A DNA stretch of 50,569 nucleotides from Deltaproteobacteria bacterium (GTDB lineage Bacteria; Desulfobacterota; Syntrophia; Syntrophales; Smithellaceae): positions 1 to 50,569 of the forward strand of contig JAGVUJ010000279.1 of assembly GCA_019136325.1 (NCBI GenBank). The letters are read 5' to 3'. The position numbers were made by a program, and so were the translations under genes. How positions within the stretch are numbered: position 1 is the stretch's first letter; each line of letters starts with the position of its first letter. The notes beneath the pieces are model-generated. The model saw nothing but the letters and a program-made list of their open reading frames with translations. It searched no databases and was not told where the DNA came from. Below are positions 23,067 to 43,216 of the stretch, piece after piece.

Positions 23067-23080
23067 TAACTTGTTTTATC

Positions 23081-23276
23081 AGCCCCTGCGATGTGCGTGA
23101 TTAACATTTGTTTTTGAGCCAACATTTTTGACCTTGGGACCTTATCCTTGATTGTGGTGTGCATGTCCGCTTTTTCCTGAGCTGGTCGGGAAGCAGAAAG
23201 CCTGAAACAACCAATACCGGTGCCCACTTTGTAAAAAGGTTCAAAAAAAGTGATTAACACGGCATAGGCGGGGGTT
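23081..23276 (+). ncRNA. ssrS: 6S RNA
   Basis: The approximately 195-nt region directly after zapA has the architecture of 6S RNA, the regulator that binds the sigma70-RNA polymerase holoenzyme by mimicking an open promoter. The 5' segment CCCCTGC, then ATGTGCGTG (23083-23099), can pair with the 3' segment CACGGCAT, then GCGGGGG (23258-23274), to form the long closing stem with small internal mismatches and a bulge. The interior is less structured, as expected for the large central bubble. Location after zapA is strong support. The ends are approximate. The RNA ends in GGGGGTTTTC, a plausible termination site. Confidence 0.72.
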
Positions 23277-23551
23277 TTCATGTCCCGCATCTTCATTTTC
23301 CGTCTTTTGAAAATAATCAATCAGAGGTACGAATCCCGCTTTGCGGGATAATTCGTCCAACAAATTTCAGCGCGCTACGCTTCTGAAATTTGGGACTCAT
23401 TACAAATTCTCACGGTTTTGTGTCCGAACAACAGGATACAAACAGTGAGGTTTAAATATAGCTCAACCGGAGAAAAGTTATTTTCATGATAACGGCAGTA
23501 ATCGAGTCGGAAAATGGATTTTCCGGAGGGGCACCAAGGAGGTAACACGAT
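23277..23551. repeat. Two hairpins between 6S RNA and rny
   Basis: The first hairpin is built on ACGAATCCCGC and GCGGGATAATTCGT (about 23331-23357, loop TTT, 3-nt bulge). The second is a perfect 10-bp inverted repeat CAAATTTCAG/CTGAAATTTG (23361-23370 and 23383-23392). Neither has a T-run. They may be extragenic palindromes or leader structures of rny. No gene was found here. Confidence 0.55.
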
Positions 23552-42020: not shown

Positions 42021-42362
42021 ATGGAAACGATGATTGCTTATTGCGGTATTATTTGCACGAAGTGTCCGGTTTATCTGGCGACACAAGCCGACGATGACAA
42101 GGCCCGGGAGGATGTGGCCCAACGCTGGTCGACGCAATACGGTCTGCACATCAAACCTCAGGACGCAACCTGTGACGGTTGCCTGAAAATGAACGGACGG
42201 CTTTTCAGTCACTGTCGCGTCTGCGGCATCAGGACCTGCGGCATGGAGAAAAAGGTCAGCACATGCGCTGCCTGCGCCGATTATGCCTGTGCGCAGTTGA
42301 AAGCGTTTCATTCCGTCGCGCCGCACGCCGGCCGGATGCTGGAAAAGCTGCGCGAAGAATAA
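42021..42362 (+). CDS. DUF3795 zinc-ribbon-like protein
   Basis: The 113-residue Cys-rich protein matches the DUF3795 pattern: YCGIICTKCPVYLAT at the start (C-G-x-x-C-x-x-C), CDGCLKMNGRLFSHCRVCGIRTC in the middle and CAACADYACAQLK towards the end, 11-12 Cys in all. It probably binds zinc or an Fe-S cluster; function is unknown. AGGAGG precedes ATG 42021. The selenoprotein ArsC gene begins 17 nt after its stop, so it is the first gene of that operon. Confidence 0.85.
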   Translation: METMIAYCGIICTKCPVYLATQADDDKAREDVAQRWSTQYGLHIKPQDATCDGCLKMNGRLFSHCRVCGIRTCGMEKKVSTCAACADYACAQLKAFHSVAPHAGRMLEKLREE

Positions 42363-42379
42363 ATGAAAAAGGAACATGT

Positions 42380-42724
42380 ATGAAGGTTGACTTGTTCTGC
42401 TGGACGAAGTGAACGACGTGCCGGAAGGCGGGAGAGTTTCTCTCGCGGAAGAGGGTGGAAGTTAAAGCAAGAGACTTTTTCCAGGAGCCGTTCACGCGCT
42501 CGGAAATTGATGAACTTTTACAGGGTAAATCCGCATCGGAAATGTTCAGCTTCCGTTCGCCCCGTTTTAAAGCATTGGGGCTGAGTCAGGAAAAACTTGC
42601 GGATCAGGATCTGGTTGATCTTATGCTCCAAGAGCCTCGCCTGATTCGTCGTCCGGTGGTGAGAATAGGCAAAAAGGTTTATTTCGGCGCGGACAGCAAG
42701 ATGCTATCGCAGATATTGAAATAG
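42380..42724 (+). CDS. ArsC/Spx-family selenoprotein, in-frame TGA read as selenocysteine
   Basis: The frame from ATG 42380 to TAG 42724 encodes 114 residues of the ArsC/Spx/YffB family (PF03960) if the TGA at 42410-42412 (codon 11) is translated. The N-terminus then reads MKVDLFCWTK-U-TTCRKAGEFL, with Sec exactly at the catalytic Cys of the family's C-T-x-C-R-K-A motif and the partner Cys at 14. Downstream the family pattern continues without a break: EPRLIRRPVVRIGKKVYFG, with the Arg pair used for substrate binding. The length equals normal family members. The part after GTG 42455 alone (89 residues) would lack the active site. A hairpin 20-32 nt after the TGA is a candidate SECIS. GGAA lies before the start. 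The substrate (arsenate, glutaredoxin-like disulfide or other) is unknown. Confidence 0.85.
42410..42412 (+). other. UGA codon predicted to encode selenocysteine
   Basis: This is codon 11 of the ArsC-family frame; the flanking protein sequence on both sides matches the family with no frame change, and Sec would replace the nucleophilic Cys. Confidence 0.8.
42415..42448 (+). promoter_or_regulatory. Candidate bacterial SECIS element
   Basis: Immediately after the UGA, GAGAG (42432-42436) pairs with CTCTC (42440-42444) around TTT, with two further G-C/C-G pairs beyond a G-G mismatch. If the closing pair opens, the loop starts with G, as bacterial SECIS loops require. The loop lies about 24 nt from the UGA, inside the usual window. 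It is not verified by folding. Confidence 0.45.
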
Positions 42725-42748: not shown

Positions 42749-43216
42749 ATGGCGAAGATGGACAAGATAATTTGTTTTAGCGTAGGGTTATCGACACAGG
42801 ATATCGAACAAGGCAGGGCCTCGTTTGAAGGCATGAACAGGCAAGTTCCGGTACCGGAGGTGATTGCCGTGACTCAACCCATGCTGGGTTTGCGGGTGGG
42901 CGACGTACTGGAGGGTATGATTGAAGGGTCGGAAGGGAACACACATGGCGAATGGAAGGCTTCGGAAATAAAATTGTCTCCTTCCGCCGGCAAGTACCGG
43001 GTGGTTATTGTTCATACACAGGAGCGCGATTGGGTCTTGCGGGTGATGAGAAGCTTCAAAGCGGTGCTGCCCGATCCGCAGAACATTATTTTTGCCGTGA
43101 TAACGGAGACGGCCCTGAGCTGGACATTTGAGGATTATATCGGTCATCTTGGTAAAGAGCACGAGTCCATGCAAAACCGCAGAACTGAAAATAATCCTGA
43201 TATGAAAAAGATTTAA
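42749..43216 (+). CDS. DUF3783 domain protein
   Basis: The 155-residue protein has an N-terminal part ([35 protein letters not shown], residues 7-40) that I do not recognise. A C-terminal DUF3783-like domain (about residues 85-142) contains [20 protein letters not shown] and [26 protein letters not shown], including the conserved A-V-x-T-E-T-x-x-x-W. Function is unknown. It lies 24 nt after the selenoprotein gene and 25 nt before paaK. ATG 42749 or 42758 may be the start. Confidence 0.78.

Follow-up and report, generated by a model that had tools for sequence, protein, structure and literature searches.

This locus raises the question of whether an in-frame TGA at codon 11 of an ArsC/Spx-like gene ends translation or is read as selenocysteine (Sec), and of what the resulting protein would do. 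The gene and its surroundings in the window, by which we mean the whole 50,569-nucleotide stretch analysed, are collected in the table. As the original prediction had it, one frame runs from ATG 42380 to TAG 42724 with a single internal TGA. Translated with TGA as Sec, it yields a 114-residue protein whose residue 11 is U, within CWTKUTTCRKA, and under translation table 11 the same frame yields only the 89-aa ORF from GTG 42455. The expectation that standard gene callers would report this tail and miss the active site agrees with the protein database, where record P0002 is the 89-aa form starting at that GTG. With C substituted for U, the Pfam ArsC family (PF03960) matches residues 9-108 (E 9.8e-17, 61.5 bits against a gathering cut-off of 24), and the similarity thus spans the TGA, as had been proposed. 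Across a sample of 29 hand-picked clade sequences, window included, the third codon position accounts for 53.8% of the nucleotide differences in codons 2-10, the first for 17.7% and the second for 28.5%, against an even spread over the three positions (34.2, 33.4 and 32.4%) in a control stretch 5' of the ATG. Judged by this substitution pattern, the part of the frame between ATG 42380 and the TGA is coding sequence.

Table. Features of the predicted selenoprotein gene and its immediate neighbours in the window
Feature	Position	Strand	Remarks
ArsC/Spx-like selenoprotein gene (predicted)	42380..42724	+	114 residues and stop TAG
In-frame TGA, codon 11, predicted to be read as Sec	42410..42412	+	First Cys place of CxxC
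Cys14 codon, second residue of the U-x-x-C pair	42419..42421	+	Cys in 78/78 mapped loci and 72/72 aligned members
89-aa ORF from GTG 42455	42455..42724	+	Product of standard gene calling; without active site
A-G-G-A 5' of the ATG	42370-42373		Read from sequence
SECIS-like hairpin	42428..42446	+	7-bp stem, 42428-42434 with 42440-42446; 5-nt loop AGUUU, 42435-42439
DUF3795 gene directly upstream	42021..42362	+	Pfam PF12675
DUF3783 gene directly downstream	42749..43216	+	Pfam PF12646

Relatives of the gene speak directly to the meaning of the TGA. A scan of one genome per species with a 24-protein alignment as query matched 152 stretches, 91 of which encode a relative; 80 were kept. The codon-11 column is readable in 78 of these loci, the exceptions being L038 (damaged 5' part, in-frame TAA) and L079 (N at the column), and it holds TGA in 76 and Cys (TGT; L070, L080) in two; all 78 retain the motif's second Cys. 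Because 76 of 78 readable relatives have TGA in the exact column, a chance origin of the codon is excluded. The claim that the TGA stands in the place of the nucleophilic Cys, which was to be checked against homologues, is upheld by these DNA-verified relatives, all of which have either TGA or Cys there.

Wider searches gave the same picture. In the order to which the genome of Smithella locus L001 (G001) belongs, 35 of 155 genomes matched with E up to 1e-10, and, counting TGAs per match and not position by position, 34 of the 35 have one TGA; the remaining genome, G149 (by its coordinates the L038 genome), has one TAA. From the class that includes G006 (genome of Dehalococcoidales locus L015), 393 genomes were drawn; 62 of them matched with E up to 1e-8, 55 with the TGA form and seven with Cys. 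Nine genomes of this class have a row lacking TGA, one of them being G019, the genome of L080. The other eight were fetched together with eight more picked by hand. Six of the TGA-less rows are Cys genes (L103-L108), the TGA of G228 lies just outside the match, and the broken gene of G025 has its TGA in a second row. Of the later-fetched loci, L110 was unmappable, and L111 was left out of the count of new genes because it is the L053 gene again.

A fold of the sequence 3' of the TGA had been put forward as a further check, and comparison of the TGA genes reveals a conserved, covarying hairpin there, in which nucleotides +16 to +22 from the TGA pair with +28 to +34 (16-34 nt 3' of the TGA). The complete 7-bp stem is present in 61 of 77 TGA genes, window included, with a mean of 6.53 of 7 pairs. 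The 16 genes with an incomplete hairpin retain 6 pairs (eight genes), 5 (three), 4 (one), 3 (two), 2 (one) or 1 (one), the weakest being L073 and L077, with 1 and 2 pairs. When each codon was redrawn from the synonymous codons pooled over the same genes, the mean fell to 3.88 pairs, the highest of 1000 trials was 4.35 and at most five complete stems arose. Over 76 distinct rows, the covariation score (0.443 versus 0.263 shuffled), the proportion of paired cells (93.4% versus 84.1%) and the number of cells with both sides changed (71 versus 23.8) were reached in none of 500 shuffles, and all three are lower in slid registers. Two of the five measures, pairs with two-sided change (4 versus 3.1) and further pair types (9 versus 8.5), are not above the shuffles, and on them the true register is matched or surpassed by some slid ones. 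RNAalifold recovers six of the seven stem pairs unasked. In an independent test on the later-fetched loci, all eight new TGA genes (L109, L112-L118) have all seven pairs. None of the eight Cys genes has a complete hairpin: the six later ones (L103-L108) have 1-4 pairs, L070 has 2 and L080 has 1. Within the window's own 51 nt the hairpin is the centroid and not the minimum-energy fold, and the energy does not stand out (z -0.58); single-sequence folding does not single out the hairpin, whereas comparison does.

The machinery for Sec insertion was sought in 20 relatives' genomes, chosen through their loci (18 TGA, 2 Cys). selA, selB and selD are over cut-off in 20/20, a count that includes a partial selA in G002 and, in G004, a selB recognized only together with its in-frame neighbours. 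tRNA-Sec is also over cut-off in 20/20, at 65.9 bits or more in 19, in which it is convincing; the G004 match is weak, with 50.2 bits where secondary hits elsewhere also score 47-55 bits. In 19 of the 20 genomes (G001-G020) selD itself has one in-frame TGA.

Because the TGA occupies the site of the reactive Cys and has 3' of it a conserved hairpin of the kind that marks selenocysteine genes, a full-length Sec protein is very probable, and we consider it very highly probable that the window gene is a true selenoprotein gene.

The structure model of the window protein (mean pLDDT 93.3) gives a confident prediction of a Spx/ArsC-type fold. By Foldseek E-value the best match is Spx (3gfk; query TM 0.78, 32% identity); the ArsC-family proteins 3rdw and 3f0i reach a query TM of 0.86. 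Among 72 aligned members (alignment A3, from which L028, L038, L042, L048, L051, L052, L076, L078 and L079 were left out), residue 11 (U/C), C14, R31, E42, S60, P61, E85-P86-R87-L88 and R90-R91-P92 are invariant. On the basis of motif and fold, we interpret the protein as a selenol-based thiol/selenenylsulfide oxidoreductase. UGA codon 11 would be read as Sec within a 114-residue protein of ArsC/Spx fold, the SECIS hairpin behind it recruiting SelB with Sec-tRNA, and U11-x-x-C14 would form a redox couple within one protein. The selenolate would attack a disulfide or other oxidised substrate, Cys14 would resolve the adduct as a selenenylsulfide, and a cellular reductant would re-open it. That the Sec form would be a much stronger reductant than the Cys form is an expectation from general chemistry. 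We put the probability of this whole explanation, a SECIS-driven 114-residue Sec protein with a U-x-x-C redox couple, at about 0.75; as to activity, a selenol-based thiol oxidoreductase is most likely, the cycle being predicted from motif and modelled fold, and arsenate reduction is not indicated.

Two other functions have to be weighed against a thiol oxidoreductase. The protein might be a regulator of Spx type that binds RNA polymerase and uses a selenenylsulfide as its redox switch. Spx proteins are its closest solved relatives by sequence, as they are by Foldseek E-value, with U11 aligned on the first Cys of CxxC, and the best NCBIfam model is TIGR01617, named for the RNA polymerase-binding Spx/MgsR. 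R59, which aligns on a Spx residue that we take to be Arg60, is Arg in 54 of 72 members. Yet the window scores 72 bits on TIGR01617, below the cut-off of 75.05, and 61 on the Spx model NF002459, for which 123 are needed; R59 is not invariant; and the window protein ends at residue 114, where Spx chains have 131-132. Relatives fall on both sides of the TIGR01617 cut-off (L001, 80, and L013, 77.4, above; L041, 58.7, and L050, 54.2, below). We therefore consider a regulator unlikely. It is equally improbable that strict anaerobes act on RNA polymerase through a selenenylsulfide (U-x-x-C) switch with Sec as its sensing residue, a switch passed between Smithellaceae-type bacteria and Dehalococcoidales.

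The second possibility, an arsenate reductase with a Sec nucleophile, seems no better founded. Pfam places the protein in the ArsC family, E. coli ArsC structures match the model with a query TM of 0.83-0.84, and in an older survey the Sec forms were read as a sign that selenium takes part in arsenate reduction (PMC1088965). Against this, the window reaches 52.3 bits on the arsenate reductase model TIGR00014 (cut-off 106.05), and the scanned window neighbours include no ars-type gene. E. coli ArsC also has a third Arg in its active site, presumably Arg107, that lacks a counterpart here, residues 102-106 being almost free of Arg in the 72 members.

The gene neighbourhood was considered as operon evidence for function and set aside, as neither the DUF3783-like nor the MutS-/MutL-like neighbours name a substrate. 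A relative of the upstream DUF3795 gene lies near the gene in one other locus (L004), and a DUF3783-like gene (a blastp relative) is found 0.3-2.3 kb downstream in seven others. In the window the DUF3783 gene is followed by an AMP-binding (phenylacetate-CoA-ligase-like) gene and a histidine-biosynthesis-type gene. The seleno-ArsC gene of 17 Chloroflexota loci has a MutS-like gene on one side and a MutL-like gene on the other, all on one strand, and in L049 it is 2 kb behind the MutS-like gene; the Pfam names of MutS and MutL were confirmed in L050 only (L050:5824-13050). An oxidoreductase gene (NAD- and FAD-binding) precedes mutS at Chloroflexota loci.

The statement that Sec-containing ArsC-like proteins have come out of metagenome surveys proved right, such proteins being described in print (PMC1088965, PMC2398784). 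The Sargasso Sea arsenate reductase selenoprotein has a UxxS motif (PMC1088965), and the Global Ocean Sampling (GOS) selenoproteome describes an ArsC 1 with UxxS and an ArsC 2 with UxxC, the latter assigned to cd03032 (PMC2398784); both forms also appear in tables of PMC9312934 and PMC13188914. As described, the UxxS proteins (PMC1088965; ArsC 1 of PMC2398784) share with our gene the ArsC family, a Sec nucleophile and a SECIS element, but their motif lacks the resolving Cys. GOS Arsenate reductase 2 is closer, with Sec, UxxC and a Spx-type ArsC subfamily, and differs in being known from marine sequences; likened by description only, it may be a marine branch of one and the same family (PMC2398784). 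The arsenate reductase-like selenoprotein of NF041106 is likewise an ArsC-family protein with Sec in UxxC (PMC13188914, Table 1), but the window scores 36 bits on this ArsC family selenoprotein model, below the curated cut-off of 85, which none of the 72 members reaches (best L072, 44.9 bits, E 1.5e-11). Bacillus subtilis Spx (PDB 3gfk, 1z3e) resembles the window protein in fold and aligns its CxxC with UxxC, and differs in having Cys for Sec, about 32% identity and a longer C-terminal end. Among deltaproteobacteria, Desulfotalea psychrophila and Desulfuromonas acetoxidans have ArsC-like selenoproteins that are alike by description only, and the selenoprotein list given for Syntrophus aciditrophicus in the same source names no ArsC-like protein (PMC1794560). 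The terms arsenate and ArsC are absent from the main text of PMC12013277, and among the matches listed in the open-licence literature we found no paper on the gene in Smithella, Syntrophales or Dehalococcoidia. Since Sec-containing ArsC-like proteins, UxxC included, are already in print, what we describe is a new clade (Syntrophales and Dehalococcoidia) of a known kind of selenoprotein. It is a coherent Sec-dependent clade with a conserved SECIS of its own, and none of the NCBIfam models searched matches it.

A quick tree built from 87 rows places the window in a supported set of 38 rows (support 99), all with TGA, comprising deltaproteobacterial rows, mostly of Syntrophales type, with 12 mostly Dehalococcoidia rows nested inside (97), a single-contig chromosome (L015) among the latter. 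This nesting suggests gene transfer between the Syntrophales-type and Dehalococcoidia groups, in a tree with few columns, several long branches and 38 of 83 inner branches weak. Four changes between Sec and Cys are needed on the same tree, two of them forced by well-supported branches. With a clean hairpin and, in one class, pairs of related genes in Sec and Cys form, the clade offers a good case for asking why some lineages keep Sec and others exchange it for Cys.

That the TGA is a true stop, either because the gene is decaying or because the 89-aa tail from GTG 42455 is the real product, is much less probable than either functional alternative. The tail is what gene callers report, and a few relatives are interrupted. 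Such relatives had been named as a possible sign of decay; they do occur but are rare, at four of the 80 loci (an extra TAG in L028 and L042, damage to the 5' part in L038, a frame break in L052). The column itself, however, is TGA and never TAA or TAG in the 76 of 78 relatives, with coding constraint 5' of the TGA and a conserved hairpin 3' of it.

The interrupted copies differ in kind. In L028 and L042, both Dehalococcoidia loci, a TAG replaces the nearly invariant Trp8 codon three codons 5' of the Sec TGA (L028:10022-10024, L042:7913-7915), and hairpin and tail are intact despite it; 3' of the extra TAG, most differences between the two genes are still at third codon positions. Pyrrolysine was considered for this TAG and rejected, no PylS being over cut-off in 10 genomes; as TAG moreover ends local ORFs (3/12 in the L028 locus and 4/16 in the L042 locus), it seems to be a normal stop codon. 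A blast screen of these loci for additional in-frame stops was too noisy for use. L038:9184-9486 is a damaged copy with an in-frame TAA and no recognisable active-site part, and L052:3623-3853 a damaged copy with its frame break 3' of the active site.

Database records bear on how TGA is decoded. Among the best 120 of 421 database proteins, 103 do not align over column 11, and the active site is therefore missing from those records; the clade is widely misannotated, the database holding mostly the fragment without the active site. The 17 protein records that cover the column have W (nine), C (seven) or S (one). The W forms (P0006, P0010, P0012, P0014, P0017, P0021, P0029, P0030, P0034) are metagenome proteins and probably derive from code-4 gene calls, because their contigs are at most 1,215 bases long. 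These nine W records are what favours a reassignment of TGA to Trp or another residue in these genomes, and with the likely code-4 origin of the records, only TGA or Cys in DNA-verified relatives, TGA ending ordinary ORFs in relatives' loci (e.g. 6/19 in L001) and Sec machinery in relatives' genomes, we regard it as highly implausible and far behind the Sec reading.

Further selenoproteins in the window were sought with two TGA read-through screens, which gave 11 and 16 low-overlap candidates, none of which showed a Sec context that convinced on visual inspection. The first screen admitted only frames with one TGA between TAA/TAG stops, and the second probably lost the known gene to its overlap filter; as neither recovered the known ArsC/Spx-like gene, both are insensitive and say little. 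Elsewhere in the window, a 6S RNA is found at 23080-23278 (+) with 90.8 bits.
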